Origin: Bacteroidales bacterium
GTDB taxonomy: Bacteria > Bacteroidota > Bacteroidia > Bacteroidales > JAFGHD01
Reading direction: 5' to 3'
Assembly (NCBI GenBank): GCA_016939365.1
Contig: JAFGHD010000088.1
Span: forward strand, 1-34,081
Length of the DNA stretch: 34,081 bases
The translations under genes and the position numbers were made by a program. Within the stretch, counting starts at the first letter, position 1. Each line of letters starts with the position of its first letter. Of this stretch, positions 6,391 to 21,606 are shown piece after piece. The notes beneath the pieces were generated by a model. The model did no database searches. It saw only the letters and a program-made list of their open reading frames with translations, and was not told the origin of the DNA.

Positions 6391-7176
6391 ATGCAAAGTT
6401 TCTTTCGAAATCCTTCCAGGGGGTGGATGATGGTACTGATACTGGCAATGATTTTCACATCTTGTGTTCCAAGGAAGAGAACCCTCTATTTTCAGTCCCT
6501 TCAGGAAGGAGATTCAATCAGGCCCGAGTACATGGTGAAGGAAATACCTGAGTATCGCCTTCAACCTGGTGATAATCTGCATATAAAGATACTCAGTGCT
6601 GAGGAAGACGCATCGAAGCTGTTATCGGATTTTGCACAGGGATCCAATACCTATTACGATGCCGGAGTTTATCTCAGTAGTTTTTATATCAGCGATTCCG
6701 GTATAGTCCGGTTACCTTTTATTGGCAATATTGCTGCCGGAGGCAAAACGATCGAGGAGGTCAGGGATTTGATCCAGGAAGAGATTGACATGTATATGAC
6801 CGGTACGGCTGTTAATGTCAGATTGGTCAATTTCATCGTTACTGTTTTGGGTGAAGTGCAGAGGCCGGGCCAGTATAAAATCTACCAGGATATGGTGAAT
6901 ATTTACGAAATGATAGGTATGGCCGGTGATATGACGAGCGTTGCACTGAGGGATGAAGTGCTTTTGATCCGAAAAACACAAAATGGGTCATCTATTCATA
7001 AGATCAATATGCTGGATGTGAGATTGCTGGAGTCAGATTATTTTTATTTAAGGCCCAATGATATCATATATGTGAAACCGGTTAAAGCAAAGAATTTTGC
7101 TTTCGGAACATTTCCTTATGCGGTATTTTTCGGAACCGTTACATCACTTTTGCTGATATTAACTTTCTTTAAATAA
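6391..7176 (+). CDS. wza: Wza-like polysaccharide export outer-membrane lipoprotein
   Basis: The 261-residue protein has a lipoprotein signal peptide whose hydrophobic core (WMMVLILAMIF) ends in the lipobox TSC with the lipidated cysteine at residue 25. A poly_export domain follows (YRLQPGDNLHIKI, then YYDAGVYLSSFYISDSGIVRLPFIG), then one SLBB-like segment (VTVLGEVQRPGQYKIY). A C-terminal hydrophobic stretch (about residues 235-258) is typical of the short Bacteroidota Wza proteins. The protein would form the outer-membrane export channel and dock on Wzc, encoded 10 bp downstream. It is shorter than the ~380-residue proteobacterial Wza, which is normal for this phylum. The gene probably heads the operon, given the promoter just upstream. 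Confidence 0.9.
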   Translation: MQSFFRNPSRGWMMVLILAMIFTSCVPRKRTLYFQSLQEGDSIRPEYMVKEIPEYRLQPGDNLHIKILSAEEDASKLLSDFAQGSNTYYDAGVYLSSFYISDSGIVRLPFIGNIAAGGKTIEEVRDLIQEEIDMYMTGTAVNVRLVNFIVTVLGEVQRPGQYKIYQDMVNIYEMIGMAGDMTSVALRDEVLLIRKTQNGSSIHKINMLDVRLLESDYFYLRPNDIIYVKPVKAKNFAFGTFPYAVFFGTVTSLLLILTFFK

Positions 7177-7186
7177 TCCGGGATAA

Positions 7187-9679
7187 GTGGATAACCTGCG
7201 AAATATTGCCCACGAAGAATCTTTCGATTACAGATCGATCTTTTTCAAGTTGTACCGATTCTGGTATTTCTTTATCATTACAGTTTTCATCGCCCTTCTC
7301 ATAGCATTTTTGTTCAACAAGTATACCAAACCGATCTATGAGGTTTACACCACCGTTCTGATCAAGGATGATCGGTCAACCATGGATCCCCAATCCCTCA
7401 TCGGTTTTGGATTCAGGAACACACAGCAAAATGTCGAGAATGAAATAGGCAAGCTGAAATCCTATTCACTGGTCAAAACGGTGGTGAAGGCACTGGATTT
7501 GAAAGTCTCATATTTCATTGAGGAGAATTTCATTACCAACGAACTCTACCGTAACTCACCCTTCTTGGTGGAGCTTGATACCAACGTTTTTCAACCAATC
7601 AACCTCAAATTCAAGGTGATCATTCTTTCCGACAGGGAGTTCAAGCTGGAAGCCGAAGGAAAAAGTGTGAAATTATACGATTACCGGAATTACAGGATCG
7701 CCGATCCGAATCTGTTCAGTGAGGAAGTGAACATCAGTATTGACAGCACTTTTTCTTTTGGACAGCGAATCAAGGGGAAATACTTTAATTTCAGGATACT
7801 GCTGGATGAAACCAACAGGCCTGCAAGGTATATCGGAAAAAGCCTCTATTTCATCTTCAATGACATTGATAAGATGACCAGCGGATTCCGCTCATACGAA
7901 ATAGAACCGATTAAGGATGAGTCATCCATTATCAGGATAGCCCTTAAGGGCAATAATGTGTCGAAATCGGTTGATTTCCTCAATAAAATGACAGAGGTTT
8001 ACCTCCGTTTGAATCTGGAAAAGAAGAACAAGATTGCAGAAAACACCATATCATTTATTGATGTCCAGCTGGGCGAAATTTCCGATTCACTCTATTCCGC
8101 TGAAAGCAATCTTCAGGATTTTCGCGCATCCAATAAGATCATGGACATGGATTTCCAGGCTACGCAGCTTTTTGAGTACCTGAAGGATCTGGATAGCCAG
8201 AGAGCTACCCTGCAGGTGAAATCGAAATACTATTCCACCCTCCTGGACTATATCGAGAGCAACAGGGACATTGCTAATGCATTGGTCATTCCCTCGACAC
8301 TGGGAATCGAGGACCCGATCCTGAACGAGCTGACTTCAGAACTTGCCAAATTATATGCGGAAAAGGAAGAAAAATCGTACTTTTCAACCGAACAAAATCC
8401 TACCATTATTGGTTTGTACCAGAAAATTGAAACGACAAAAAGCGTACTTCTTGAGAACATCAGGAATATTATCAAGGCTTCGGATATTTCGCTCAACGAC
8501 ATCAGCCAGCGTATCAGCGAGCTGGAATCCCGGATCAACCAATTACCCCGTACTCAGAGGCTTTTGCTTGGCTTTGAAAGGAAGTTCAAGCTCAGCGATA
8601 ACCTGTTCACATACCTGCAGCAGAAGAGATCAGAGGCACAGATCACCAAGGCTTCCAATGAGCCTGACAACGAAGTGATTGATATTGCAATGGATATGGG
8701 AAGCCCACCGGTTTTTCCGAAGAAGAGTATGAATTACATGATCGCCATTATCCTTGGGATCATTCTCCCGGTAGTATATATTCTCGGGAAAGATTATTTC
8801 AACGACAAGATCATTGAGCGTAAAGATGTGGAGAATATCACCGCTTTTCCCATCATCGGACATGTGATCCACAGCAACAAGGAGGGTAAGCTCGTGGTCT
8901 CCGAATCCCCCAAATCATCCATTGCTGAGTCGTTCAGGTCTATACGTACGAATCTGCAATTCATCGCCAAAGGAAAGGAGAAACAGATCATCCTGATCAC
9001 TTCTGATATGGTCAGTGCAGGAAAGACCTTCTGTTCAATCAACCTGGCTGCGATTTTTGCCATGTATGGTAAAAAAACACTTCTTATGGGTTTCGACCTG
9101 CGAAAGCCAAAAATTTACCAGGATTTTGGCTTGTCCAATTCGGAGGGTATCAGTTCGTTTCTGATCAACAAAAGCAATTTCGAAGATATCTTACAGGCTT
9201 CCCCCATGGAAAATCTCGACATCCTCATGTCAGGGCCGGTTCCACCCAACCCTGCGGAGTTGATCGCCTCAGACCGAACGGCCGAGCTTTTTACACGCCT
9301 GACGGAAATCTACGATTACATTATTATCGACACACCACCAGTCGGTTTGGTCACCGATGCATTCCTGCTGATGAAGTATACGGATTCAAACATTTTTATT
9401 GTCAGGCAGAATTACACCAACAAAAAGATCTTCGCATCCATTATCAATGATGTTGATAAGCGTGGACTGCCCAATATCAGCATCCTGATCAATGACGTGA
9501 AGCTGACGCGTAGTTCATACGGTTACGGTTACGGCTATGGTTACGGTTACGGCTACGGCTACGGCTACGGTTACGGTTACGGCTACGGCTATGGTTACGG
9601 CTACGGCTACGGGTATTATTCTGATGACAAGGAATTTGAAAAAGAGTCCACCATCAGGAGGATATTCAAGAAAACCTGA
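7187..9679 (+). CDS. wzc: Wzc-like polysaccharide copolymerase / BY-family tyrosine kinase with (GY)16 tail
   Basis: The 830-residue protein combines a Wzz chain-length domain and a bacterial tyrosine kinase. TM1 is at about residues 26-44 and a long, partly coiled periplasmic region follows (about 265-460). TM2 is at about 515-534. The cytoplasmic kinase has Walker A SDMVSAGKT (606-614), Walker A' LLMGFDLRKPK and Walker B YIIIDTPPV. The C terminus carries an unbroken Y(GY)16Y run (residues 778-811), the autophosphorylation tail. Wzc cycles between phosphorylated and unphosphorylated oligomers to control chain length and export through Wza. The start is GTG 7187: an in-frame TAA lies immediately upstream and no other early start exists. 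No cognate phosphatase (Wzb/PHP type) is in the window. Confidence 0.94.
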   Translation: MDNLRNIAHEESFDYRSIFFKLYRFWYFFIITVFIALLIAFLFNKYTKPIYEVYTTVLIKDDRSTMDPQSLIGFGFRNTQQNVENEIGKLKSYSLVKTVVKALDLKVSYFIEENFITNELYRNSPFLVELDTNVFQPINLKFKVIILSDREFKLEAEGKSVKLYDYRNYRIADPNLFSEEVNISIDSTFSFGQRIKGKYFNFRILLDETNRPARYIGKSLYFIFNDIDKMTSGFRSYEIEPIKDESSIIRIALKGNNVSKSVDFLNKMTEVYLRLNLEKKNKIAENTISFIDVQLGEISDSLYSAESNLQDFRASNKIMDMDFQATQLFEYLKDLDSQRATLQVKSKYYSTLLDYIESNRDIANALVIPSTLGIEDPILNELTSELAKLYAEKEEKSYFSTEQNPTIIGLYQKIETTKSVLLENIRNIIKASDISLNDISQRISELESRINQLPRTQRLLLGFERKFKLSDNLFTYLQQKRSEAQITKASNEPDNEVIDIAMDMGSPPVFPKKSMNYMIAIILGIILPVVYILGKDYFNDKIIERKDVENITAFPIIGHVIHSNKEGKLVVSESPKSSIAESFRSIRTNLQFIAKGKEKQIILITSDMVSAGKTFCSINLAAIFAMYGKKTLLMGFDLRKPKIYQDFGLSNSEGISSFLINKSNFEDILQASPMENLDILMSGPVPPNPAELIASDRTAELFTRLTEIYDYIIIDTPPVGLVTDAFLLMKYTDSNIFIVRQNYTNKKIFASIINDVDKRGLPNISILINDVKLTRSSYGYGYGYGYGYGYGYGYGYGYGYGYGYGYGYGYYSDDKEFEKESTIRRIFKKT
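9518..9619 (+). repeat. Hexanucleotide tandem repeat (GGYTAY) encoding the Wzc tyrosine tail
   Basis: Sixteen consecutive six-base units run from 9521 to 9616, mostly GGTTAC or GGCTAC with GGCTAT twice and GGGTAT last. They are preceded by TAC (9518) and followed by TAT (9617), so the reading is Y(GY)16Y with 18 tyrosines. Units differ only at the third base of either codon. Because the period is six, gain or loss of units by slippage keeps the frame and changes only the number of tyrosines. Confidence 0.95.
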
Positions 9680-9745
9680 TCAGGCCAGTGGTATCCCAGC
9701 CAGGCTTATCTGGTTTTGTTAATTGCAATGACACTGCCGTAAGGG

Positions 9746-10651
9746 ATGAACAACTATCATATCAATCATTTAAAGGAGCTTGAATCAGAGGCCATTTATA
9801 TCATCCGGGAGGTTGCAGCGCAATTTGAACGACCCGCACTGCTGTTTTCCGGCGGCAAGGATTCCATCGTGATGGTTCATCTGGCACGCAAGGCATTCTG
9901 GCCTGCCCTTCTCCCGTTTCCCTTATTGCACATAGATACCGGCCATAACTTCGAGGAAACCCTTGCCTTCCGGGACCAACTGGTGGAAAAGATCGGGGCG
10001 CGGCTCGTTGTGGGATATGTCCAGGAATCGATCGACAGCGGCAGGGCCGTGGAGGAAACGGGATATTATGCCAGCCGTAATATCCTGCAGACGGTCACGC
10101 TGCTTGACACCATCGCCAGGCATCGTTTTGATGCCGCCATCGGCGGTGGCCGGCGCGACGAGGAAAAGGCCCGTGCCAAGGAGCGGTTTTTCTCCCACCG
10201 GGATGAGTTCGGACAATGGGACCCCAAAAACCAGCGCCCGGAACTGTGGAATATTTTCAACGGCAAAAAGAAGCAGGGCGAACACTTCAGGGTCTTCCCA
10301 CTCAGCAACTGGACCGAAATGGATATCTGGCAATATATTTACCTGGATGGGATTGAGCTGCCGGAGTTGTATTTTACCCATGAACGTGAAGCTTTCAACA
10401 GGGATGGCGTGTGGCTCGCATATGCGCCTTTCATGAAGATGAAACCGGATGAAAAAGTGGAGGTCCTGCGCGTCAGATGCCGCACCATCGGTGATATCAC
10501 CTGTACCGGCCTGACCCTTTCAATGGCTGAAACACTCGAAGATATTATCCGGGAGATAGCTGCCACCCGGGTCACTGAAAGGGGATCAAGGGCCGATGAC
10601 CTCCGTTCGGAATCAGCTATGGAAGACAGAAAACGGGAGGGGTATTTTTAA
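9746..10651 (+). CDS. cysD: Sulfate adenylyltransferase subunit 2
   Basis: The 301-residue PP-loop ATP pyrophosphatase of the PAPS reductase/CysD family carries the SGGKDS motif at residues 35-40 (ALLFSGGKDSIVMVHLA). CysD signature blocks follow: HIDTGHNFEE, GGGRRDEEKARAKERFFS and FRVFPLSNWTEMDIWQYI. With CysN it makes adenosine 5'-phosphosulfate from sulfate and ATP, driven by GTP hydrolysis. The length equals that of proteobacterial CysD. It begins 66 bp after wzc and is followed 11 bp later by cysN, so the pair may be cotranscribed with wza-wzc. No APS kinase, APS/PAPS reductase or sulfotransferase is seen in the window. Confidence 0.95.
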   Translation: MNNYHINHLKELESEAIYIIREVAAQFERPALLFSGGKDSIVMVHLARKAFWPALLPFPLLHIDTGHNFEETLAFRDQLVEKIGARLVVGYVQESIDSGRAVEETGYYASRNILQTVTLLDTIARHRFDAAIGGGRRDEEKARAKERFFSHRDEFGQWDPKNQRPELWNIFNGKKKQGEHFRVFPLSNWTEMDIWQYIYLDGIELPELYFTHEREAFNRDGVWLAYAPFMKMKPDEKVEVLRVRCRTIGDITCTGLTLSMAETLEDIIREIAATRVTERGSRADDLRSESAMEDRKREGYF

Positions 10652-10662
10652 TCCTCAACAGG

Positions 10663-11940
10663 ATGGAGAAACAGTTCTCTTCACAAGCATACCTGGATAT
10701 GGAGCTGTTGCGGTTCACCACAGCAGGAAGTGTGGACGATGGCAAGAGTACGCTCATCGGGAGGTTACTTTATGACAGCAAATCCATCTTCGAGGATCAG
10801 CTCGACGCAGTCAAGCGTGCAAGCCTCCAGCGCGGCAATGAACATATCAACCTGGCCCTGCTGACCGATGGTCTGAGAGCGGAACGGGAACAGGGGATCA
10901 CCATCGACGTGGCCTACCGGTATTTTGCCACCCCCAAACGCAAGTTCATCATCGCTGACACCCCGGGACATATCCAATACACCCGGAACATGGTCACGGG
11001 TGCTTCCACAGCCAATGTGGCCATTATCCTGATCGATGCCCGAAACGGGGTCACGGAACAAACCCACAGGCATGCATATATTGCCTCGCTCCTGCAGATA
11101 CCCCATATGATCATCTGCATCAACAAAATGGACCTGGTAGATTATCAGGAAGATGTGTACGAAGGGATCAAAAAACAATTCAACACCTTTGCCGCCAGGC
11201 TCGAGGTGCGGGATATCCGGTTCGTACCGATCAGTGCACTAAAGGGTGACAATGTGGTCGATCGCTCGAATAGCATGCGATGGTATAACGGCGCCACACT
11301 GCTTCATTTGCTGGAGACAATCCATATCGCCAGCGATCACAATTTCACTGATGCCCGCTTTCCGGTGCAATATGTAATCCGTCCTCAATCCGATCAACAT
11401 CATGATTTCAGGGGATATGCCGGACGTGTGGCGGGCGGTGTCTTTTCCAAAGGTGATGCCATAACTGTATTACCTTCAGGTTTCACAAGCAAAATCAAAT
11501 CGATCCATATTTCCGGCCAGGAGATCAATGAAGCATTTCCCCCCCTTTCGGTAACCCTGACACTGGAAGACGATATCGATGTGGGCAGAGGAGACATGAT
11601 CGTCAGGGAAAATAACCTTCCCCTGACCGGCCAGGATATCGATCTGATGATGTGCTGGATGAGTGAAAGACCGTTGAATACACAGACCAGATATATCCTG
11701 ATGCACACCACGCGCGAGGCAAGGTGTCTGATCAGGGAGGTTTCCTACAAGGTGAACGTCAATACCATCGAAAGGATTCCTGACGATGTGCAGGTCAGGC
11801 TCAACGATATCGCCCGGTTGAGGATCAGGACCACCCAGCCCCTGTTTTTTGATCCCTACAGGAAAAACAGGAAAACAGGAAGCCTGGTCATCATAGATGA
11901 GGCCAGCAACAATACAGTAGGCGTTGGTATGATCATCTGA
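10663..11940 (+). CDS. cysN: Sulfate adenylyltransferase subunit 1 (GTPase)
   Basis: The 425-residue translation-factor-like GTPase has its P-loop at AGSVDDGKST (residues 21-30), a switch region around EREQGITIDVAYRYF, the G3 motif DTPGH (99-103) and the G4 motif NKMD (154-157). EF-Tu-like beta-barrel domains II and III follow. It is the regulatory GTPase of ATP sulfurylase and pairs with the adjacent CysD. It is somewhat shorter than E. coli CysN and has no C-terminal APS-kinase domain, so it is not a CysNC/NodQ fusion. Sulfate activation next to wza-wzc suggests the cluster may supply sulfate for polysaccharide sulfation, but ordinary sulfur assimilation is equally possible. Confidence 0.95.
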   Translation: MEKQFSSQAYLDMELLRFTTAGSVDDGKSTLIGRLLYDSKSIFEDQLDAVKRASLQRGNEHINLALLTDGLRAEREQGITIDVAYRYFATPKRKFIIADTPGHIQYTRNMVTGASTANVAIILIDARNGVTEQTHRHAYIASLLQIPHMIICINKMDLVDYQEDVYEGIKKQFNTFAARLEVRDIRFVPISALKGDNVVDRSNSMRWYNGATLLHLLETIHIASDHNFTDARFPVQYVIRPQSDQHHDFRGYAGRVAGGVFSKGDAITVLPSGFTSKIKSIHISGQEINEAFPPLSVTLTLEDDIDVGRGDMIVRENNLPLTGQDIDLMMCWMSERPLNTQTRYILMHTTREARCLIREVSYKVNVNTIERIPDDVQVRLNDIARLRIRTTQPLFFDPYRKNRKTGSLVIIDEASNNTVGVGMII

Positions 11941-11984
11941 AGCTTTATGCAGGCAAGCCCTGAAATTGTTATCAGAGAGTTTTT

Positions 11985-11992
11985 TATATTTG
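11985..11992 (+). promoter_or_regulatory. Candidate Bacteroidota -7 box for the Dlt-like module
   Basis: TATATTTG matches TAnnTTTG and lies in the 109-base gap between cysN and the adenylating enzyme, 58 bases before ATG 12050. No good -33 TTTG is seen at the usual spacing. It is followed immediately by GGCCCCCTG, nearly the same bases as after the wza -7 box. Confidence 0.45.
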
Positions 11993-12049
11993 GCCCCCTG
12001 ATTATTTTTTCATCGGTACCGTTATCAATACAGGGTGGGAAAAACATTC

Positions 12050-13552
12050 ATGATGCTGTTGGAACAGATCATAAAGGCCTGTGAATCCTTTTCGGAAAGA
12101 AACGCTTTCTTTACAGGAGAGCAGTATTACACATACCGTGAATTCGCTGCCGCCATTGCAGCCGTTGTGGAACAGGTTCATGAAAGGAACAGCCTCATTG
12201 GTCTCATTTCCGAAGATGATTTCGCAACCTATGCGTCTCTTTTCGGGATTCTTTTTTCGGGCAACGGATTTGTTCCGATCAATCCGGACAGTCCCCCGGA
12301 AAGAAACCTGCAGATCATCAGACAGGCGGGTATCCGTACCATTCTCTCCAGCCGGCCTTTCAAATCACAAAATGAGCTGGTTGAAGTCGGTTTACGATGT
12401 GTCTTTACAGGCAACCTGCCCCCGGCAAAAACCGTTCCTGCACTCCCGGGAGTGTCTGAAGAGAGCACGGCCTATATAATATTCACCTCCGGCAGCACAG
12501 GCATTCCCAAAGGGGTTCCCATCACCCGGAAGAACATCAGCGCTTTCATCAATGCTTTCTTTGACTATTTCGGGAATATTGATGAAAGGGACAGCTTTCT
12601 TCAAATGTATGACCTGACTTTTGATGCTTCGGTCATGCATTACCTTCCCGCCCTGTGCCGGGGAGCTTGTGTTTATACCGTACCAAGGCATGAGATCAAA
12701 TACCTTTACGCTTACAAGCTGCTTTCTGAGCACCCCATTTCCTTTTCTCTTCTGATGCCCTCCACGCTTAACTATCTGCGGCCCTACTTCAAAAAAATCC
12801 GACTGAACGACCTTCGTTATTCCCTTTTCGGTGGTGAAGCCGTTTTTCAGCAAATCATTCAGGAATGGTCGGACTGTGTACCTAACGCAAGAATATTCAA
12901 TGCTTACGGCCCAACAGAAGCCAGCATTTTCTTTATGATCTATGAATGGGATCCCGCAAAGAGCGGAAGAAAAGCCTTCAACGGAATGGTTCCGATCGGC
13001 AAACCCATGAAAGATACTGTAGTAGCCCTGGTTGATGAAAACCTGAACCCTGTCACCGGTAAGGGTGCCACAGGTGAGCTAGTCATGGCCGGGCCTCAGC
13101 TCACTCCAGGATATCTCAATCAGCCCGGGAAAAACCGCGAAACCTTCTTTACCATGGAATATCAGGGAGAATCCGGAAGGTTCTACCGTACCGGGGATCT
13201 GGCCTTTAAAGATGAAGAAGGTGATTATATGTTTTGTGGCCGGGCCGACAATCAGGTTCAGATCCAGGGTTTCCGCGTGGAACTGGGTGAGATTGAACAT
13301 CATGCCAGGAAATTCACAAAGATACCCAATGTGGCAGCGGTCGCTTTCCAGAATGAAGTAGGCAGTGTTCAGATACACCTGTTCCTTGAGTCCTACAGCG
13401 GAAAGAAAAAAGAGGTGAACGAATACCTGAAAGCAAAGCTGCCTTCATATATGATCCCGGCAGGGATAAGCAGCCTGGAGCAGTTACCCGTGAGCAGCAA
13501 CGGAAAAATCGACCGGAAAGCACTTGCACGATTGGCTGAAAATCTTCATTGA
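12050..13552 (+). CDS. DltA-like amino-acid adenylating enzyme (carrier-protein ligase)
   Basis: The 500-residue stand-alone adenylation domain shows the ANL core motifs in order: A3 TSGSTGIPKG (146-155), A4 FDASVM (191-196), A5 NAYGPTEAS (284-292), A7 YRTGD (379-383), A8 GRADNQVQIQGFRVEL and A10 NGKIDRK with the catalytic lysine near 486. Length and layout fit DltA (~500 residues), and the FDxSVM pocket motif resembles that of D-alanine:carrier ligases. It would activate a small amino acid as the adenylate and load it on the carrier protein encoded at 14499. A GTG at 12035 is possible, but ATG 12050 gives a normal N terminus. The order adenylase, GNAT, carrier, MBOAT, SGNH suggests a Dlt-like surface modification. 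The substrate cannot be fixed from the sequence; another amino acid or acyl acid is possible. Confidence 0.82.
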   Translation: MMLLEQIIKACESFSERNAFFTGEQYYTYREFAAAIAAVVEQVHERNSLIGLISEDDFATYASLFGILFSGNGFVPINPDSPPERNLQIIRQAGIRTILSSRPFKSQNELVEVGLRCVFTGNLPPAKTVPALPGVSEESTAYIIFTSGSTGIPKGVPITRKNISAFINAFFDYFGNIDERDSFLQMYDLTFDASVMHYLPALCRGACVYTVPRHEIKYLYAYKLLSEHPISFSLLMPSTLNYLRPYFKKIRLNDLRYSLFGGEAVFQQIIQEWSDCVPNARIFNAYGPTEASIFFMIYEWDPAKSGRKAFNGMVPIGKPMKDTVVALVDENLNPVTGKGATGELVMAGPQLTPGYLNQPGKNRETFFTMEYQGESGRFYRTGDLAFKDEEGDYMFCGRADNQVQIQGFRVELGEIEHHARKFTKIPNVAAVAFQNEVGSVQIHLFLESYSGKKKEVNEYLKAKLPSYMIPAGISSLEQLPVSSNGKIDRKALARLAENLH

Positions 13553-13556
13553 ACGG

Positions 13557-14363
13557 ATGACAAACGAAAAATATTCAGACGTCTGCAAGGAATCCATTCT
13601 GGGAGTGGAAGAGAATCTGTATGACCTGTATATCCAAATGGGCAAAATCTCCAATAGAATCCTCCATGTTGCAGAAGATATCAGCTGGGTGAACTGCAGG
13701 CCAACAGCCTGGCCTAACTTTATTTTCAATCCCCTGATTCCGGAATCATCAGCCCGGGAAAGGGTCGGGTGGATTTGTGACCAGATCAGGAAAAAAATTG
13801 CACCCCCGTTCTGGCTCACCAGTCCGAAAACGAAACCAGATGGTCTCGCGATTTTAATGGAGGAGCAGGGGATGCGTGTCATTGCCGAATGGCCCGGCAT
13901 TGTGATGGACAGCAACAACATCCATGACTACGACAGGCCATTGGACTATATAACAATTCCGGTAACCCACCATAGTGAACTGGAACCATGGCTGAAAATT
14001 GCCAGCAGGGTGTTGTTCAACAACGGATTGCTCGAAACAGAAATATTTGAAAAACTGATCCCTGATCCACGCTTTGATCTCTTTCTCGGATTGCTGGATG
14101 ATAAGCCGGTGGCCAGTGAAATGAACTACTATGCCGCTGGGGTCAATGGAATGTATATGGGTGCCACTCTTCCTGAATACCGTAAAATGGGCATCGGCAA
14201 AGCCATAGTATACGATGCCGCCATATCCGGACGTGAAAAAGGGTTTCCGATTGCTATTGCCCAGTCATCCGTGATGGGATTACCATCATGGAAAAAACTG
14301 GGATTCAACTTGCATTACAATATGTATCTCTGGTGGATGGTTGGAAAGGAATTCAAACAGTGA
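13557..14363 (+). CDS. GNAT-family N-acyltransferase inside the Dlt-like module
   Basis: The 268-residue protein starts 4 bp after the adenylase stop. Its C-terminal third is a GNAT domain: beta-strand NGMYMGATLPEYR, then the acyl-CoA pyrophosphate loop KMGIGKAIVYDA (R/Q-x-x-G-x-G/A type), then the closing segment PSWKKLGF. The first ~150 residues are poorly recognised and may be a degenerate second GNAT lobe. GNATs transfer acyl groups from CoA, and sometimes aminoacyl groups from a carrier, to amines. Tight coupling to the adenylase suggests it acts on the activated amino acid, for example N-acylating it on the carrier, or transfers it. An alternative TTG start at 13524 would overlap the previous gene by 29 bp and is less likely. 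No dlt operon of the classic type includes such a gene. Confidence 0.7.
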   Translation: MTNEKYSDVCKESILGVEENLYDLYIQMGKISNRILHVAEDISWVNCRPTAWPNFIFNPLIPESSARERVGWICDQIRKKIAPPFWLTSPKTKPDGLAILMEEQGMRVIAEWPGIVMDSNNIHDYDRPLDYITIPVTHHSELEPWLKIASRVLFNNGLLETEIFEKLIPDPRFDLFLGLLDDKPVASEMNYYAAGVNGMYMGATLPEYRKMGIGKAIVYDAAISGREKGFPIAIAQSSVMGLPSWKKLGFNLHYNMYLWWMVGKEFKQ

Positions 14364-14382
14364 ACTGACCTGTTGCGGCGAG

Positions 14383-14434
14383 TCGGAAGTGGTCATCTTT
14401 GACTGAAACCGGAACAACCGCACCAGGCTTCCGA
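14383..14434 (+). other. Inverted repeat before the carrier-protein gene
   Basis: TCGGAAG (14383-14389) pairs exactly with CTTCCGA (14428-14434) across a 38-base loop, in the 135-base gap ahead of the carrier-protein gene. A seven-base match is only modestly above chance. No promoter box of the TAnnTTTG type is seen in this gap. Confidence 0.2.
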
Positions 14435-14498
14435 AAACCATAGAGGAAGCAATAGGGAAAATGGAAGAAACTGATTATTAATCCAACGATACTTCATT

Positions 14499-14741
14499 AT
14501 GGAATTAGCAGAAATCTTCAAGCAGGTAAACGAGATATTCAAGGATATCTTCGAAGAGGATGACATCGTGATTGAGGCGGAAACTTCTGCAAAGGATATT
14601 GACGGATGGGACTCTCTCACCCATATGCAGATGATCACAGCAGTTGAGAAACACTTCAAGATTAAATTCGAGCTGAATGAAATCCTGAATTTCAAAAACG
14701 CCGGAGACATGTGCAGGCTGATACAAACCAAGCTCGGATGA
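14499..14741 (+). CDS. Acyl/aminoacyl carrier protein (DltC-like)
   Basis: This 80-residue acidic helical protein has the phosphopantetheine attachment motif GWDSLTHMQ, with the modified serine at residue 39. Family knowledge: apo-carrier proteins are primed by a phosphopantetheinyl transferase and carry the substrate as a thioester. Size, the D-S-L motif and the position between an adenylating enzyme and an MBOAT protein all match DltC. The housekeeping fatty-acid ACP usually lies by fabF, so this looks like a dedicated carrier. Spacers of 135 and 101 bases flank it, both wider than elsewhere in the module and each holding a short inverted repeat. This may allow the carrier to be expressed at a different level. 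Confidence 0.88.
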   Translation: MELAEIFKQVNEIFKDIFEEDDIVIEAETSAKDIDGWDSLTHMQMITAVEKHFKIKFELNEILNFKNAGDMCRLIQTKLG

Positions 14742-14780
14742 TGATTCCTGAAGGATTCAGTAATTGAATTTCATGGGCAG

Positions 14781-14803
14781 GGAATGAAACGGGCACTCAT
14801 TCC
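14781..14803 (+). other. Short hairpin between the carrier protein and the MBOAT gene
   Basis: GGAATGA (14781-14787) pairs exactly with TCATTCC (14797-14803) around a nine-base loop, 39 bases before the MBOAT start. No U-run follows, so it is not a typical terminator. It could stabilise or process the upstream carrier-protein mRNA. Confidence 0.3.
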
Positions 14804-14842
14804 GGTATGAAAGTCTTTGCTCAACAGATAATCTGACAGGAA

Positions 14843-16285
14843 ATGCTCTTCAACTCGTTCGAATTTCTCCTTTTTTTCCCGGCCGTTGTGGTATTGTTCT
14901 ACCTGACACCACACCGTTGGAGATGGCTGATGGTATCCCTGTCCAGTGCTTTTTTCATGGCTTTTGCCCGTCTGGATTTTGTTCTGGTGATCCTGTCAAT
15001 CATCATGGTCAATTACCTGTCTGCCATCCTGATGGAAAGATCAGCGGGTTGCTACGGGAAAAAATGGGCCCTGGCAGCCAGTCTTATTCTGGATATCGGA
15101 CTTTTAAGCTACTTCAAATACTTCAATTTCCTTGCCGATAATTTCAACAGCCTGTTTGATCTGCTGGGGCTGAATCTGGACATTCCCCATCTTTCCGTGG
15201 TACTGCCCCTGGGGATTTCCTTCTACACCTTTCAGGCAATCGGATATAACATTGAAGTGTATCGCGGGAGCATGAAAGCCGAGAGAAACCTGCCGCTTTT
15301 CCTGACCTACCTTCTCTTTTTCCCGAAGCTGATCGCAGGTCCCATTGAAAGGGCCCAGAATTTTCTTCCCCAGTTGCACAGCCGGATCAGCCTGAATTTC
15401 CATAACATCAACTCCGGCATCAAGCTGATGATATGGGGATTCTTCAAGAAACTGGTAGTGGCCGACCGGATTGACATCTATGTCAATGCCGTCTACGGAA
15501 ACATTGAGCAACATTCTTCCATTACCCTTTTTACCGCATCCGTCCTTTTTGCATTCCAGATTTACGCTGACTTTTCAGGTTATACGGACATTGCCCGGGG
15601 TGTCGCACGCGTGATGGGATTCCGGCTGATGGAAAATTTCGAGAGACCTTTCCTGGCCCTTTCAGTCTCTGAATTCTGGAGAAGATGGCACATTTCACTG
15701 TCTTCCTGGGCGGACGATTATATATTCAAACCTATTGTAGCCCAGAAAAGATATTGGGGTAACTGGGGCGTGCTATATGGTGTCATCATTACTTTTTTTG
15801 TCATCGGTATCTGGCACGGCCCTTCATGGAATTTTGTGCTCTTCGGCTTGTTCCAGGCTGTCGTGATTTTCTACGAGCTGCTCACCAAGAAATCGAGAAA
15901 AAGGTTCAGAAAAAAGCTTACATCCCCGCTGATAAAGGGATTACACAATCATTCCACCCGCATTCTTACATTTCTTTTCATCACATTCTCAATGGTATTC
16001 TTCAAGGCACCGACCTTCGATGATGCCATGATGATCCTTTCAAGGGTGGCCACCTTTGAGACGGGAACCCTGTTTTTAGGCTCGCTCTCCACCTTTGTAT
16101 TTGCATGGTCCGGAATCGTTTTCCTGGTGCTGGCAGAGATCCGGAGAGAATATGGATGGTTTGATTTTGGTTTCCTGAGCAATAAATATATGCTCGTCAG
16201 GTTATTGAAGTATTCGTTACTGGTTCTGATCATTCTGATGATCGGGGTATTTGACGGCGGGCAGTTTATTTATTTCCAATTCTGA
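14843..16285 (+). CDS. MBOAT-family membrane O-acyltransferase (DltB/AlgI-like)
   Basis: The 480-residue polytopic membrane protein has about ten hydrophobic segments and the MBOAT signatures: PLGISFYTFQAIGY (~122-135), FPKLIAGPIERAQNF (~160-174), YADFSGYTDIARG (~241-253), SEFWRRWHISLSSW with His283, and WHGPSWNFVLFG with the catalytic-type His325. MBOATs such as DltB and AlgI pass an acyl group across the inner membrane to an extracytoplasmic polysaccharide acceptor. AlgI/PatA-type proteins use an acetyl donor, while DltB takes D-alanine from DltC. The carrier protein just upstream favours the DltB mode here. The next gene, an SGNH protein, matches the usual MBOAT partner. Confidence 0.9.
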   Translation: MLFNSFEFLLFFPAVVVLFYLTPHRWRWLMVSLSSAFFMAFARLDFVLVILSIIMVNYLSAILMERSAGCYGKKWALAASLILDIGLLSYFKYFNFLADNFNSLFDLLGLNLDIPHLSVVLPLGISFYTFQAIGYNIEVYRGSMKAERNLPLFLTYLLFFPKLIAGPIERAQNFLPQLHSRISLNFHNINSGIKLMIWGFFKKLVVADRIDIYVNAVYGNIEQHSSITLFTASVLFAFQIYADFSGYTDIARGVARVMGFRLMENFERPFLALSVSEFWRRWHISLSSWADDYIFKPIVAQKRYWGNWGVLYGVIITFFVIGIWHGPSWNFVLFGLFQAVVIFYELLTKKSRKRFRKKLTSPLIKGLHNHSTRILTFLFITFSMVFFKAPTFDDAMMILSRVATFETGTLFLGSLSTFVFAWSGIVFLVLAEIRREYGWFDFGFLSNKYMLVRLLKYSLLVLIILMIGVFDGGQFIYFQF

Positions 16286-16298
16286 TCAACAGGCTGTG

Positions 16299-17318
16299 AT
16301 GAAGATGAATGATATGATTACAGGTTCACCAGTCCGCAGGTTTTTGATCAAGGCATTGATTTTTATTTCAATGATCATGGCCGGCGACCTGCTAACCGGA
16401 AGCATTCTTCGAACCTTTTATTTCCAGCAAACCGAAGGAAGCAGCTACAGGACAACACTGGCCATGGAGAAGACCCAGGCAGACCTGTTGATATTTGGTT
16501 CTTCATCAGCACTTCACCATTACGTCCCGAAAGTTTTCACGGACAGCCTCGCAGTAAGCTATTTCAATGCCGGACGTGACGGACAAAGTGTCTTCTATTT
16601 TGATGCTGTCCTCAGGGCCATCCTGAAGCGTTACATCCCAAGGATGATCATTCTCGACATTCATCCCAAACAACTCTTCAGAATGCAAGAAAGCTATGAC
16701 CGCCTCTCGGCCATACTGCCTTACTACAGAAATCATCCGGAAATCAGGGAGGTGATCACTCTCAAAAGCAGGTTTGAGAAATACAAGATGCTTTCCAGCA
16801 TTTATCCATTTAATTCCCAAATATTCAGCATTCTTTCGTCACACAGGATGCTGCATCCCACACCACACGGAGATGAAAGCGGTTATGTGCCCCTTCGCCG
16901 CAGCATGATGGCACAGCCGCGCGATACCATAACATTCCGTCCTGAAATGAAGATCGACCCTAATAAAATTGAGGCCCTTGACCAGTTTATCGGGAACTGT
17001 GTGCAGAAGGGGATCAAACTTTATGTGATACAATCACCCGGACATTGGCATTACCCTGATAATATATCAGATACGGCACTGGCCATAATCCTTGGCAAAT
17101 ACAGCGTTGAATTATGGGATTATGCGGATGACCCGCAATTCTATACAAGGACTGAATTGTTTCAGGACCTTAGCCATCTGAATCATGATGGAGCAGTCAT
17201 TTTCTCATCGGTTGTCGCTCAAAGGATGGCGATAGAACCGGTTGCCGAATACGTGAAAAAACATAGGGCTTCTGATGTTTCAGTTTCGGATCCGGGGTAC
17301 ATCAGGCCAAATGATTAA
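16299..17318 (+). CDS. Membrane-anchored SGNH/DltD-like acyltransferase
   Basis: The 339-residue protein has one N-terminal transmembrane anchor (about residues 15-34) and a periplasmic SGNH-type domain. The nucleophile block is [15 protein letters not shown] (GSS with candidate Ser68), and the C-terminal Asp-His motif is [11 protein letters not shown] (Asp290, His293). DltD, AlgX/AlgJ and related partners of MBOAT proteins share this plan and finish acyl transfer to the glycan on the outer face of the inner membrane. A TTG at 16251 would overlap the MBOAT gene; ATG 16299, 13 bp after its stop, is preferred. Similarity to DltD proper is at the architecture and motif level, so the acyl group is not settled. 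Confidence 0.78.
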
Positions 17319-17323
17319 TTTTG
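17316..17323 (+). promoter_or_regulatory. Possible -7 box before gmd
   Basis: TAATTTTG fits TAnnTTTG and overlaps the TAA stop of the SGNH gene, 25 bases before the gmd ATG. No -33 box is evident and the box is close to the start codon, so the call is weak. Confidence 0.25.
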
Positions 17324-17347
17324 CATTTCGCAAAGAATTCGAATGCT

Positions 17348-18499
17348 ATGAAAACAGCCTTAGTTACCGGTATTACAGGTCAGGACGGTGCTTATCTTAC
17401 CGAGCTGCTCCTGTCCAAGGGATATACTGTATGGGGGATAAAGCGTAGGTCTTCACTCTTCAATACAGCCCGCATTGACCATCTGTTTCACAACGACCGG
17501 GAACAGGGTGATAACCGGTTCAAATATCTCTACGGAGACCTGACCGATTCAAGCAACCTGATCCGGGCCATACAGGAGATACAGCCGGATGAAATATACA
17601 ACCTGGCGGCTATGTCTCATGTGAAGGTGAGTTTTGACACCCCCGAGTATACTGCCAATGCGGATGGATTAGGAACCCTCAGGATACTGGAAGCTGTGAG
17701 ACTGCTAGGTATGGTGGACAAAACCCGCATCTACCAGGCATCCACTTCTGAGCTGTTCGGGAAGGTGGCTGAAATTCCCCAGACGGAAAAAACACCTTTC
17801 TATCCCAGAAGCCCATATGGAGCTGCAAAGTTGTATGCATACTGGATAACGGTTAACTACCGGGAAGCCTATAATATGTTCGCCTCAAATGGTATCCTCT
17901 TTAATCATGAATCACCGCTGAGGGGTGAAACATTCGTTACCCGGAAAATCACACGTGCCATTGCCAATATCTCGCTCGGTCTGCAGAAAAAGCTCCACCT
18001 GGGCAACCTCTCGGCACAGCGCGACTGGGGGCATGCAAGGGATTACGTGGTGGCCATGTGGCTCATACTGCAACACCATGAACCCGATGACTTCGTGATA
18101 GCCACCGGGAGAACAGCAAGTGTAAGGGATTTCGTCAGGATGTCGTTTGATTATGCCGGGATCACTCTCGCCTTCCAGGGAGAGGGAATTGATGAAACAG
18201 GAGTGGTAGATGACATCGATCCGGCACGTTTCGAAGAAACCATCGGGATCAAACCTCACTTTCTTCAGAAGGGACAGGTAGTAGTGGCGGTCGATCCCTT
18301 CTACTTCCGGCCTACAGAAGTGGAACTGCTTATCGGTGATGCTTCAAAGGCCCGGGACCTTCTTAGCTGGACCCCGTCCACAAAACTGGAAGACTTGGTC
18401 AGTGAAATGATGAGAAACGATATCAGCTTGATGAAAAGGGATGAGTACCTGAAAAAAGGAGGGTTCAGCGTGCTTCCCAAAATCGAAGATATTCAGTAA
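17348..18499 (+). CDS. gmd: GDP-mannose 4,6-dehydratase
   Basis: This 383-residue extended SDR starts [17 protein letters not shown], the Gmd NADP-binding signature. It carries [14 protein letters not shown], the catalytic Ser/Thr-Glu region [12 protein letters not shown], YxxxK in [29 protein letters not shown] and [17 protein letters not shown]. It converts GDP-D-mannose to GDP-4-keto-6-deoxymannose. The usual partner for L-fucose (GMER/WcaG) is absent. Instead an RmlC-like epimerase and a sugar aminotransferase follow, pointing to a 4-amino-4,6-dideoxy sugar or another 6-deoxy derivative. TTG 17321 is open in frame, but ATG 17348 matches the family N terminus. Confidence 0.95.
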
Positions 18500-18591
18500 C
18501 CCTGTCTGCAGACCCGAATATTGTCAGCCTCTAAGAAACAATTCCCAACATATCCTTGCCGTTCTGTCCGGCAGGAATCAAATCCAATGCT

Positions 18592-19131
18592 ATGTCATTT
18601 AAAGAGCTTTCAATTACACATTCCGCTGTATTGCCTGAAGTGATGGTCATTAAACCTTCTGTTTACAGTGACCTGAGAGGTAATATCTACACTTCCTTCA
18701 ACCGTGAACTTTATAGGGGATTGTTGCCTGATGGCATCGATTTCATCCATGACAAGTTTGCCGAGTCACGGTTCAATGTGCTGCGTGGCCTGCACGGAGA
18801 CACCAAGACTTGGAAACTGGTTTCATGTGTTTTCGGTGAGCTGTACGAGGTAGTGGCCGATGTAAGGAGAGGGTCACCAACCTTTGGGAAATGGGATGCC
18901 TTTTTGCTCAGGGGAGATGATTACATTCAGATACTGATCCCTCCGGGATATGTCAACGGCTATTATGTCAAAAGCGACAAGGCCGTTTTTCACTACAAGC
19001 TGGCCTATACCGGTGATTATGTTGATGCATCCGACCAGATGACCATTTTTTGGAATGATCCGGATCTGGCCATAGAATGGCCATGCTCCGCTCCGATCCT
19101 GCAGGAAAGAGATATGAAACCCAAAAATTGA
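18592..19131 (+). CDS. RmlC-like nucleotide-sugar 3,5-epimerase of the GDP-sugar (DdahB/MlghB-like) type
   Basis: The 179-residue cupin is of RmlC size. It has the catalytic-histidine block FNVLRGLHGDTKTWKLVSCVFGE and ends with the DP-x-L-x-I-x-WP motif (FWNDPDLAIEWP). As I recall them, the HDKF, RG[LI]HGDxKTxKLV and YKLAYxGxYxDAxDQ segments match the Campylobacter DdahB/MlghB epimerases better than dTDP-rhamnose RmlC (RGLHYQ, GFAHGF). Those enzymes epimerise C3 and/or C5 of GDP-4-keto-6-deoxy-manno-heptose. Its place directly after gmd supports a GDP-linked 4-keto-6-deoxy substrate. It lies 92 bp after gmd and 7 bp before the aminotransferase. RmlC acting on the RmlB product is the alternative. 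Confidence 0.8.
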   Translation: MSFKELSITHSAVLPEVMVIKPSVYSDLRGNIYTSFNRELYRGLLPDGIDFIHDKFAESRFNVLRGLHGDTKTWKLVSCVFGELYEVVADVRRGSPTFGKWDAFLLRGDDYIQILIPPGYVNGYYVKSDKAVFHYKLAYTGDYVDASDQMTIFWNDPDLAIEWPCSAPILQERDMKPKN

Positions 19132-19138
19132 GCAATCT

Positions 19139-20329
19139 ATGTCAAAATCAGATAGTAAACTGGCGATAAACGGCGGCAAGCCGGTGTCCGAGAAACCGGT
19201 GCTGATCCACAAACCCTACCTGATGGAGGATGATTTCGCTGCCGTGGATCGGGCGATCCGCTCTAGGTTTGTTTCAGGCGATGGTCCTGATTGCAGGGAA
19301 TTTGAAAGACAACTGGCCCAGTACCTGGGTGCTAGGCATGTACTTTTTGTGAATTCTGCCACCTCGGCCCTCGAACTGGCTTTCCGGGTGAAGGGATTCC
19401 CGCCGGGATCCGAAGTGATCGTACCGGATTTTACATATACCTCGACCGCCCTGGGCCCGCTTTACAACAATCTTGCCATCAGGCTGGCCGATGTTTATCC
19501 GGATAACGGAAATCTTGATCTGGCAAAGCTGGAAGGATATATAACCCCGAAAACAGTGGCAATTGTTGCTGTGGATTATGCCGGAAATCCAGTTGAGATG
19601 GATGAAATCATGCAACTAGCGAATAAATATAACCTCTATGTAGTTCATGATACGGCGCAATCCATCGGATCGGTATACAAAGGCCGCAAGACAGGAAATC
19701 AGGGACATGTGTCGACCTTCAGCTTCCACGGAACAAAGAATCTGACTACCGGGGAAGGCGGGGCAGTCGTCACTTCAGATGATCAAATCGCCGACAGGAT
19801 CAGAATCCTCAGGGAAAAAGGTACCAACAAATACTCCTTTCTGACGGATAACATCACCCGGGGCTATTACGAATACGTGGACATCGGCAACTCTTATGTA
19901 CAGTCGAATATCCTGGGTGCGCTGGGGACTTCACAACTTGCCCGGCTCGACTGGATGAATGCCGAGAGAAAGAAGATCGCTGAATATTACCTCCATAACC
20001 TGAAAGACATACCCAACCTGGGATTTCTCAGGCAGACCGGAGATTCATCAACAAACTGGCATATCTTTGTCATCTTGGTGCCGCGGGAGGAAAAATACTG
20101 GATCATGGACGCCCTCCGGGCAGAAGGGATCCATGCCAACGTGCATTATACCCCGCTGCACAGAAATGCCTACTACAAACACCTCGGTGCAGATATTGAT
20201 TTCCCTGGGGCAATGGGGTTCTTCGGAGGGCTGCTCCGCCTTCCCGTTTACCCGTCTCTTGGCTTTGAAGAGATGGGAAAAACCATAGAGGCGGTGAGAA
20301 AGGTATTCAGTGCACTCTTTGCAGATTAA
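19139..20329 (+). CDS. DegT/DnrJ/EryC1-family nucleotide-sugar C4 aminotransferase (WecE/perosamine-synthase-like)
   Basis: This 396-residue PLP enzyme has the PLP-binding aspartate region VVHDTAQSIGS, the Schiff-base lysine in SFHGTKNLTTGEGGAVV, and the segments REKGTNKYSFL and YVDIGNSYVQSN. The last two align with WecE-type dTDP-4-amino-4,6-dideoxygalactose transaminases. The TTGEGG run is also seen in perosamine synthases. It would move an amino group from glutamate to C4 of a 4-keto-6-deoxy sugar. The donor could be the GDP sugar from gmd and the epimerase just upstream, or the dTDP sugar from rmlB at 4151. Adjacency favours the GDP route. The following ATP-grasp gene may act on the new amine. 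Confidence 0.87.
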   Translation: MSKSDSKLAINGGKPVSEKPVLIHKPYLMEDDFAAVDRAIRSRFVSGDGPDCREFERQLAQYLGARHVLFVNSATSALELAFRVKGFPPGSEVIVPDFTYTSTALGPLYNNLAIRLADVYPDNGNLDLAKLEGYITPKTVAIVAVDYAGNPVEMDEIMQLANKYNLYVVHDTAQSIGSVYKGRKTGNQGHVSTFSFHGTKNLTTGEGGAVVTSDDQIADRIRILREKGTNKYSFLTDNITRGYYEYVDIGNSYVQSNILGALGTSQLARLDWMNAERKKIAEYYLHNLKDIPNLGFLRQTGDSSTNWHIFVILVPREEKYWIMDALRAEGIHANVHYTPLHRNAYYKHLGADIDFPGAMGFFGGLLRLPVYPSLGFEEMGKTIEAVRKVFSALFAD

Positions 20330-20403: not shown

Positions 20404-21606
20404 TTGAATAAGCGGATCCTGATTTTCGGTGCGGGAGAAAACCAATTGACCCTGATTCGGAAGGCAAAGGAGATGGGTTTGATTACTGTGGTAATTGATC
20501 CTGCTCCGGATCCTCCGGGCAGGAAACTGGCTGATATCTTCGAAAAGGTGGATGCGAATGATCTTGAGAAAACCATCGGGATGTCCAAAATACACCGCGT
20601 TGAGGGTATCATCACATCTCAGATGGAAAATCCCCTGCGGTTGATGGCACGTGTGGCGGAGAAGTTGGGATTCAGGTTTCCTTCCGTGGAGCATATCGAA
20701 CAATGCCGCAACAAGTTCCTGATGAAACAGGCCTTCCTGCGATCAGGCGTTCCATGTGCAAAAGGAGTATTGATCCGGCCAGGTATGGCATTGGATCATG
20801 ATGAAATAAGCGATCTGGGATGGCCCCTGATTATTAAACCCCTGGATGCCTTTTCAAGCCGGGGTGTATTCAGGATGGAAACCACTGAGGATATTGAGCG
20901 GCATCTTGATACGGCCCGCTCATATTCCTCCAACGGACAAGTCCTTATCGAAGAGTTCATTGAAGGACCCGAATTCAGTGTCGAAAGCATTACCTATGAA
21001 GGTCAGACCCATATTTTTCAGATCACTGACAAGGTGATCACCATGTATCCTTCCACTGTCGAATTGGCTCATATCCAACCTGCCGCCATTGATTTTATCT
21101 CCCGGAGTGCAATCGAAAACACAGTGATAAAGGCCATTAAAGCCCTTGGGATTGACTTCACCGCATCTCATACCGAGCTGAAACTGTCTCCCCGCGGACC
21201 AGTCATCATTGAAGTGGGAGCAAGACTGGGAGGGGACTTTATCTCATCCTACCTGACAGAAACCTCTACCGGAACCAGCCTGGAAAAGGCAGCGATCCGG
21301 GCAGCTCTCGGTATTCCTCCTGAGGTACAACCCAGACATGAACAGGGTGCAGTCATCCGCTACCTGCTGCTTGAGGAAGACATGATCGTACAACATGTCG
21401 GAAACTGGAAACAGTTGCTGGAAGAGCCCGATATGATATATGCCAACGTTTATTTAAAACCGGGTGACAGGATCCCTCCGGTTACCGACAGCGCCAAGAG
21501 GCCGGGATTCGTCATCGTCAAGGGAAACACCAGGGATGAAGCACTTGCAAACAGTATCATACGTTTGGAAGAATTGAAATCTTTCATCCATTTGAAGTCT
21601 GTTTGA
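20404..21606 (+). CDS. ATP-grasp carboxylate-amine ligase (sugar N-acylation candidate)
   Basis: The 400-residue ATP-grasp protein opens with a PreATP-grasp Rossmann strand, ILIFGAGENQLTLIRKA (residues ~5-21). The nucleotide lysine lies in PLIIKPLDAFSSRGV (~141-155), with the adenine-side segment VLIEEFIEGPEFSVES (~180-195) and the metal-binding block VIIEVGARLGGDFISSYL (~267-284). ATP-grasp ligases join a carboxylate, through an acyl phosphate, to an amine. Following gmd, an epimerase and a C4 aminotransferase, it is a good candidate for attaching an amino acid or other carboxylate to the 4-amino group. It starts at TTG 20404; the only nearby ATG (20384) is out of frame, and the next internal Met would remove the N-terminal strand. 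The substrate is unknown. Confidence 0.8.
   Translation: MNKRILIFGAGENQLTLIRKAKEMGLITVVIDPAPDPPGRKLADIFEKVDANDLEKTIGMSKIHRVEGIITSQMENPLRLMARVAEKLGFRFPSVEHIEQCRNKFLMKQAFLRSGVPCAKGVLIRPGMALDHDEISDLGWPLIIKPLDAFSSRGVFRMETTEDIERHLDTARSYSSNGQVLIEEFIEGPEFSVESITYEGQTHIFQITDKVITMYPSTVELAHIQPAAIDFISRSAIENTVIKAIKALGIDFTASHTELKLSPRGPVIIEVGARLGGDFISSYLTETSTGTSLEKAAIRAALGIPPEVQPRHEQGAVIRYLLLEEDMIVQHVGNWKQLLEEPDMIYANVYLKPGDRIPPVTDSAKRPGFVIVKGNTRDEALANSIIRLEELKSFIHLKSV

Follow-up and report, generated by a model that had tools for sequence, protein, structure and literature searches.

A putative Dlt-like aminoacyl-transfer module with an added GNAT in a capsule-type locus of a Bacteroidales bacterium

Proposed module

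We analysed a stretch of 34,081 nucleotides from a Bacteroidales bacterium (contig JAFGHD010000088.1, the window in what follows), in which five consecutive genes encode an adenylase, a GNAT protein, a carrier protein, an MBOAT acyltransferase and an SGNH protein, denoted A, X, C, B and D, respectively. With a confidence somewhat better than even, we favour the reading that these genes form a two-compartment aminoacyl-transfer module that would decorate an exported capsule-type glycan. Gene content, gene order and catalytic residues were read directly, and we infer the chemistry, namely the substrate, the capping and the acceptor, from protein families and known systems. Judged by sequence comparison, the gene set is modular and recurrent, with a cytoplasmic end that resembles Dlt, a membrane end that resembles PatA/AlgI and an additional enzyme that would work while the substrate is on the carrier.

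In the proposed route, A would activate an amino acid with ATP and load it onto the phosphopantetheine of C, as expected from its family. X, as an acyl-CoA-dependent GNAT, would then put a cap, probably an acetyl group, on the alpha-amine while the amino acid is bound to the carrier, and an N-acyl amino acid is our best reading of the extra GNAT. By analogy to PatA and DltB/DltX, B, by means of His325, would carry the acyl-aminoacyl group on C across the membrane to its own Tyr477. By analogy to PatB and DltD, D would accept the group on Ser69 and pass it to a hydroxyl of the periplasmic glycan, forming an ester. In the published description, pairs of an MBOAT and an SGNH protein draw on acyl-CoA, and Dlt is the exception that is fed by a carrier (PMC12148441). 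If the reading is true, the module would be a second carrier-fed MBOAT-SGNH group, Gram-negative and with the tyrosine shuttle already fused. N-capping on the carrier would then be a chemical step without a Dlt counterpart, capsules and exopolysaccharides would receive specific amino-acid chemistry, and one could ask gene by gene where the N-acyl-aminoacyl groups of glycans come from.

Genes and catalytic residues

The five open reading frames (ORFs) are intact, have no internal stops and all lie on the forward strand, with gaps of 4 (A to X), 135 (X to C), 101 (C to B) and 13 bases (B to D). The original prediction had named these five gene kinds together with Ser39 of the carrier, His325 of the MBOAT and the GSS, Asp and His residues of the SGNH protein, and all of them were found. 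A (12050-13552, 500 residues) is a stand-alone adenylase that matches PF00501 with 185 bits and the amino acid adenylation model TIGR01733 with 321.2 bits, above its cut-off of 317.4. A fatty-acid ligase identity was rejected on the latter score. Against two NCBI DltA models A scored 258.5 and 249.4 bits, below the cut-offs of 476 and 559.85, and it is thus related to the DltA family but under its threshold. Among solved proteins the nearest to A are DltA and the adenylation domains of nonribosomal peptide synthetases (NRPS), with LgrA as the top PDB match. Activation of a fatty or aryl acid had been named in advance as a result that would overturn the original prediction, and A scores instead with amino-acid-adenylating enzymes. 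We therefore regard it as very improbable that A activates a non-amino acid (a fatty, hydroxy or aryl acid) for another pathway. Many acyl-CoA ligase models do match A, at lower scores, but the TIGR01733 score and the closest solved proteins speak for an amino acid, as does the aspartate of the pocket, which was kept in 99 of the 99 family members read and which we take to be the residue that binds the alpha-amine in NRPS adenylases.

X (13557-14363, 268 residues) is proposed to be an N-acyltransferase on the carrier-bound aminoacyl group. It matches Acetyltransf_6 (PF13480) with 23.4 bits, just above the cut-off of 22, and its model, with a mean predicted local distance difference test (pLDDT) of 82.6, is a two-part GNAT with structural GNAT matches along the whole chain, including 4ius (Z 20.8) and mycothiol synthase 2c27 (Z 17.3). 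X carries the acyl-CoA motif Q/RxxGxG/A as RKMGIG. Since the motif in its strict form, [QR]xxGx[GA], is present in 7 of 8 X-family members, the sequences favour acyl-CoA as the donor for X. C (14499-14741, 80 residues) matches the PP-binding family PF00550 with 30.9 bits and has the phosphopantetheine serine expected of a carrier (Ser39, in GWDSL); an ACPS-family protein is encoded by the host genome.

B (14843-16285, 480 residues) matches PF03062 with 72.3 bits and combines the catalytic His325 with a C-terminal FIYFQF that contains Tyr477, which is the FXYXXF arrangement of PatA/AlgI-type proteins. Its score of 171.5 bits against the DltB model TIGR04091 is under the cut-off of 375 and the match is confined to residues 8-387 of 480, which leaves B below the threshold of the DltB family. 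When solved structures were compared by sequence (E-value 0.001), only two were matched, both DltB, with 116 and 115.1 bits. Acetylation of the tyrosine in the C-terminal FXYXXF of PatA supplies PatB, and Dlt has the same motif on DltX (PMC12148441). A search of positions 9000-20000 on both strands for a separate DltX-like ORF (20-90 residues ending in the motif) returned none. Across 86 loci there were 73 family MBOATs above 300 bits, of which 6 were cut by the locus end. The shuttle motif was strict in 60 of the 67 uncut ones, relaxed in 5 and absent from 2, both short ORFs. WHG surrounds the catalytic histidine in all 64 MBOATs longer than 440 residues. The motif was also present at the C-terminus of all 16 MBOATs in 14 loci that have neither A nor C, and it therefore marks MBOAT-SGNH pairs in general.

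D (16299-17318, 339 residues) is proposed to be the final transferase onto the glycan, and its gene stands beside that of the MBOAT, as does the gene of the SGNH partner in PatA/AlgI-type pairs. It has GSS (Ser69), Asp290 and His293 in the SGNH positions and an N-terminal helix (residues 11-42; pLDDT of the model 85.1). Neither Pfam nor NCBIfam gave a match for D at an E-value of 0.001. The first four Foldseek ranks are DltD structures, 6pfx and 3bma (E-values from 9.2e-5 to 3.9e-4, probability 1.00), with PatB lower in the list, and D can be described as a DltD-like SGNH protein, at whole-chain template modelling scores of just 0.31-0.37.

Recurrence of the gene set

Relatives were collected starting from the adenylase, from X and from D. 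A profile of the adenylase run over 395 genomes of the phylum, with three candidates scored per genome, gave five places in four genomes with at least 503 bits, the window included; the next score was 314, and many weaker matches lay inside long multidomain frames. A scan of public genome contigs with one peptide pattern, taken from a 91-column adenylase sub-region free of universal TSGSTG-type motifs, gave 304 relatives. Locus counts refer to the best 80 of the 304 (L101-L180), a sample biased to close adenylase relatives, and the architectures were assigned with hidden Markov models built from these same loci. By record titles the 80 loci are mainly from Bacteroidota, with Ignavibacteria, one Chlorobiota and two Myxococcales.

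The adenylase run holds a carrier and an MBOAT in 49 of the 80 loci, and 24 of these 49 are near glycosyltransferase or export genes by simple similarity while 25 are not. Other runs hold a carrier and a protein that we denote N2 (6 loci), a carrier, an MBOAT and N2 (1), a carrier and an SDR protein (6), or an MBOAT without a carrier (1). The order A-X-C-MBOAT was found again in L044, and adenylase-GNAT-carrier-MBOAT in many loci. Unrelated genomes repeat the same gene kinds in the same order, so the arrangement exceeds chance, and this supports the claim that the polysaccharide locus contains a Dlt-like aminoacyl-transfer module. The co-occurrence that had been proposed as a check held for the gene kinds, which are found together elsewhere. 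The triad A-X-C is followed by N2 in most X-linked loci, and the nearest relatives of B and D by score are from loci in which neither A nor C was recognised.

The X profile matched 281 of 390 genomes of the phylum, with 328 bits in the window and at most 108 bits at the other listed places. Matches of up to 108 bits were treated as general GNATs and left out of the module counts; among them, the surroundings of the 108-bit place (L046) were viewed. An X match was present in 7 of 295 genomes, the six outside the window being L041-L046. Two of these (L041 and L044) are in adenylase-carrier runs, L042 has an MBOAT and an ALGX protein as neighbours but neither A nor C, and no module genes were seen at L043, L045 and L046 (L045 by BLAST only). 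A pattern scan of genome contigs with X only matched 4 stretches, none of which was confirmed. Relatives of D are present in 62 of 295 genomes of the class.

Three further arrangements were seen among the loci. In L161, A-C-B-D is followed in the same run by FkbH-carrier-MBOAT-SGNH, and the second set reads as a further carrier-fed MBOAT pair with another loading enzyme (FkbH), perhaps for a glyceryl group. Family adenylases stand in runs with a carrier, an SDR protein and a further ligase in L092, L106, L112, L131, L133, L167 and L176, apparently a different pathway (L176 and L092 are the same contig of 33,527 bases, and L092 is outside the 80). In L102 and L104 two proteins of a group denoted k14 lie between carrier and MBOAT. 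Both k14 proteins of L104 match GDSL lipase models, one of them with LysM repeats, and they are possibly peptidoglycan-bound acceptors or transferases.

One machine or two neighbours

Several observations weigh against a single five-gene capping machine. The gaps between X and C and between C and B are loose. Of the 80 loci, 8 have a carrier but lack MBOAT, N2 and SDR, with 1 of these 8 at the locus end, and 9 have a run that lacks both carrier and MBOAT and that in 3 cases reaches the locus end. Among the eight X-linked triads the next gene is N2 in 6 and an MBOAT in 2, the window and L044. In pairwise comparison the best score of B was with a solo MBOAT (L049, 412 bits) against at most 378 bits with those of adenylase loci, and given this score B and D could be an acetyltransferase pair. 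In 28 of the 49 carrier-MBOAT loci the run has no capping candidate. In a second GNAT family that occupies the place of X, denoted G4, a crude pattern detects the acyl-CoA motif in strict form in 14 of 51 copies, in loose form in 16 and not at all in 21, and the case for capping that builds on this family is weaker as a result. The fold of X also matches, at larger root-mean-square deviation, aminoacyl-tRNA-dependent peptide synthases (Z 16.4-16.6) and FemX (Z 14.7), so that the fold alone would also suit an aminoacyl transferase.

The observations on N2 and on the solo MBOAT would be accounted for if the five genes were two neighbours. A-X-C would then make an (N-acyl)aminoacyl carrier for use in the cytoplasm, for instance on a Gmd/DegT amino sugar, and B-D would be an acetyl-CoA-fed O-acetyltransferase acting on the same glycan. 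The surroundings of D agree with this, as an MBOAT adjoins D in all 14 loci fetched (the top of a list of 61 genomes outside the window, each as the stretch around the best match), with no recognisable A or C in the stretch, and so does the occurrence of N-acetyl-alanyl and N-acetylglycyl amino sugars in bacterial glycans (PMC3210612). Against it, the N2 protein of L126 used as query had no match in the window's genome (97.5% complete), an empty answer that alone shows nothing, and A-X-C-MBOAT is seen again in L044 with a different MBOAT. In the MBOAT tree, moreover, B groups with L180, L103, L125, L132 and L109, all of them adenylase loci (node 0.868). As the X-linked adenylases are one clade and the MBOATs of the window and L044 are nevertheless far apart in the tree, A-X-C was apparently joined to an MBOAT twice, separately. 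With N2 as the usual follower of the triad, A-X-C and B-D give the impression of two units combined in the window. The last gene of L044 (519 residues) was recognised neither by our profiles nor by Pfam, and its SGNH nature is a motif read by eye. The L044 joining, the MBOAT tree and the N2 result favour one machine over two neighbours without settling the matter, and we consider two neighbours unlikely, although the strongest of the competing explanations.

The enzyme between adenylase and carrier

A GNAT or a formyltransferase is in the run in 21 of the 49 carrier-MBOAT loci. Two of these 21 loci, L110 and L180, have it ahead of the adenylase; in the other 19 it comes after the adenylase and before the carrier, or in L119 is fused to the carrier. 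Three kinds of enzyme fill this slot: the G4 GNAT of about 220 residues, the X family, and a formyltransferase that has the Formyl_trans_N as well as the Formyl_trans_C domain (in the slot in L168 and L172, ahead of the adenylase in L110). Profiles of X and G4 align over 53 columns only, with probability 94, and by this comparison they are two families of one superfamily. In L119, a single metagenome contig, one ORF consists of a GNAT (residues 1-219) and a carrier (221-299). N2 gave no Pfam match in the copies tested (L041, L093 and L126). X as the terminal transferase was rejected: X is constant while the last step varies between N2 and an MBOAT.

In the adenylase tree, where midpoint rooting was uninformative and a re-rooted version was used, the X-linked adenylases (8 of 8) form one clade with support 0.935, and these eight have seven distinct pocket codes. 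X is kept while the codes vary and should therefore act on what all amino acids share, so X would go with the adenylase whatever the side chain, which fits an enzyme for the alpha-amine. An NRPS F domain formylates its amino acid after loading on the carrier domain (PMC8949500). Because NRPS formylation takes place on the carrier and LgrA is the top solved match of A, we infer N-capping on the carrier from the position of the slot and the class of chemistry.

A second alternative keeps the machine and removes the cap: A-C-B-D would transfer an uncapped amino acid that adds a positive charge as in D-alanylation, and X would trim misloaded carrier or acetylate a sugar. The loci without a slot enzyme and the G4 copies without a recognisable motif agree with this alternative, as do two features of the pocket and its neighbourhood described below, the overlap of the commonest code with DltA and 4oxi and an alanine racemase gene in Segatella copri. 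It has more difficulty with slot enzymes that share one reaction class in two GNAT families and a formyltransferase, with the GNAT-carrier fusion of L119 and with the pairing of X with a single adenylase clade. We judge a free amine to be rather improbable, less so than a non-amino-acid substrate and more so than two neighbours.

Substrate pocket of the adenylase

Ten-residue pocket codes were obtained by mapping GrsA positions by eye. The code of A is D-A-M-L-L-G-A-I-F-K. The commonest code in the family is DLMLLCVIFK, with 42 of 99 codes (41 of 97 without L092, as the 99 take in both L176 and L092). Since three residues of the window code are smaller than in the commonest one (L to A, C to G, V to A), the pocket suggests a somewhat larger aliphatic amino acid than glycine or alanine, as a lead. 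Codes of DltA, 4oxi and the LgrA domains were read from alignments by eye. On this reading position 301 is G in A and C in DltA and 4oxi, and DLMLLCVIFK shares D, L, M, L299 and C301 with DltA and D, L, L278, C301 and I330 with 4oxi, which we take to be AlmE with glycyl-AMP. For the pocket region of one family member (L108) 4oxi was the best PDB match. DltA and 4oxi suggest glycine or alanine.

In a capsule locus of Segatella copri DSM 18205 (L212, 8818-12716), a related adenylase with the code DFSQICMVFK, a carrier, an AAC(3)-family acyltransferase and an alanine racemase stand in a row. The racemase gene beside the adenylase-carrier pair suggests alanine as the substrate there. With the Segatella racemase as query, no racemase was found beside the family adenylases in the 86 loci. 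Of three plasmid matches, one in Vibrio tubiashii has a different gene setting.

Comparison with known systems

The window shares with the Dlt system an adenylase, a carrier, an MBOAT and an SGNH protein, DltD being the best Foldseek match of D, and differs from it in the extra GNAT, the Gram-negative-type capsule locus and the shuttle fused to the MBOAT, with no separate DltX found. An ordinary dlt operon was rejected, as A and B are under the DltA and DltB cut-offs and the shuttle is fused. The claim that the same Dlt parts are present with one extra enzyme has accordingly to be given up, also in view of the nearest relatives of B and D by score, in whose loci neither A nor C was found. In LgrA, the N-formylating start module of linear gramicidin (F-A-T), capping takes place on the carrier, as proposed for the window, and the adenylase-formyltransferase-carrier order of L168 and L172 is a split version of its parts; the window module, in contrast, has no condensation domain, continues with an MBOAT and would use a GNAT as its capping enzyme.

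We know of no GNAT in the AlmEFG system, nor of a GNAT or a capsule locus in connection with the dra locus of Bordetella. In AlmEFG, which adds glycine to Vibrio lipid A, an adenylase and a carrier likewise put an amino acid on a Gram-negative envelope molecule (PMC3783018, PMC12930378), whereas AlmG is an LPLAT-domain protein (PMC3783018) and the window has an MBOAT-SGNH pair in place of an LPLAT-type final transferase. The dra locus, which we liken to the module by description only, is reported to add D-alanine to a Gram-negative outer-membrane component (PMC4448142). The O-acetyltransferases PatA/PatB, AlgI/AlgX-J and WssH share an MBOAT with a C-terminal FXYXXF and a partner SGNH protein; these pathways are described without a carrier and as evidently acyl-CoA-fed (PMC12148441), and in the window an adenylase and a carrier are encoded directly upstream of the pair. 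In the open-licence PMC literature, searched by titles and abstracts with subscription journals and preprints outside the search, no description of this gene set was found.

Amide-bound N-acetyl-alanyl, N-acetylglycyl and N-acetylthreonyl groups are known from amino sugars in the polysaccharides of Gram-negatives, many of them marine (PMC3210612). We tentatively put forward, as a possible though doubtful generalisation, a mix-and-match route in which N-acetyl or N-formyl aminoacyl thioesters would be made on a dedicated carrier and passed either to N2, for amide-linked sugars in the cytoplasm, or to an MBOAT-SGNH pair, for ester-linked groups outside the membrane. Such a route, if true, would be a source of some of these glycan substituents.

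Genomic setting

The module had been placed between wza-wzc and wzy-wzx of a capsule locus, and matching Pfam families lie on both sides, though Wzy_C is under its cut-off. Upstream are Wza-like and Wzc-like export genes (6391-9679, forward strand; Poly_export, and Wzz, GNVR and AAA_31), followed by cysD- and cysN-like genes of sulfate activation (9746-11940). No cysC or sulfotransferase was found among the 20 window proteins run against Pfam. Downstream are Gmd, a dTDP-sugar isomerase, DegT and an ATP-grasp protein, then a Wzy-like polymerase and a Wzx-like flippase (21832-24724, forward strand; Wzy_C with 28.7 bits against a cut-off of 31.7, and Polysacc_synt with 67.9 bits). Promoter and terminator patterns were no better than in shuffled sequence.

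Three neighbours deserve a brief description. The Wzc-like protein (7187-9679) ends in a tyrosine-rich tail with 32 alternating Gly-Tyr residues from residue 779. The ATP-grasp protein (20404-21606) has the C-terminal domain of L-amino acid ligases (PF18603, 45 bits) and is a possible second amino-acid-joining enzyme for the same glycan. A polysaccharide-deacetylase-like gene is present in the window at 26810-27979, and such a gene immediately precedes A-X-C-N2 in L041 (3861-4895), L147 and L165, a position that would fit an acceptor role for a freed sugar amine in the N2 branch.

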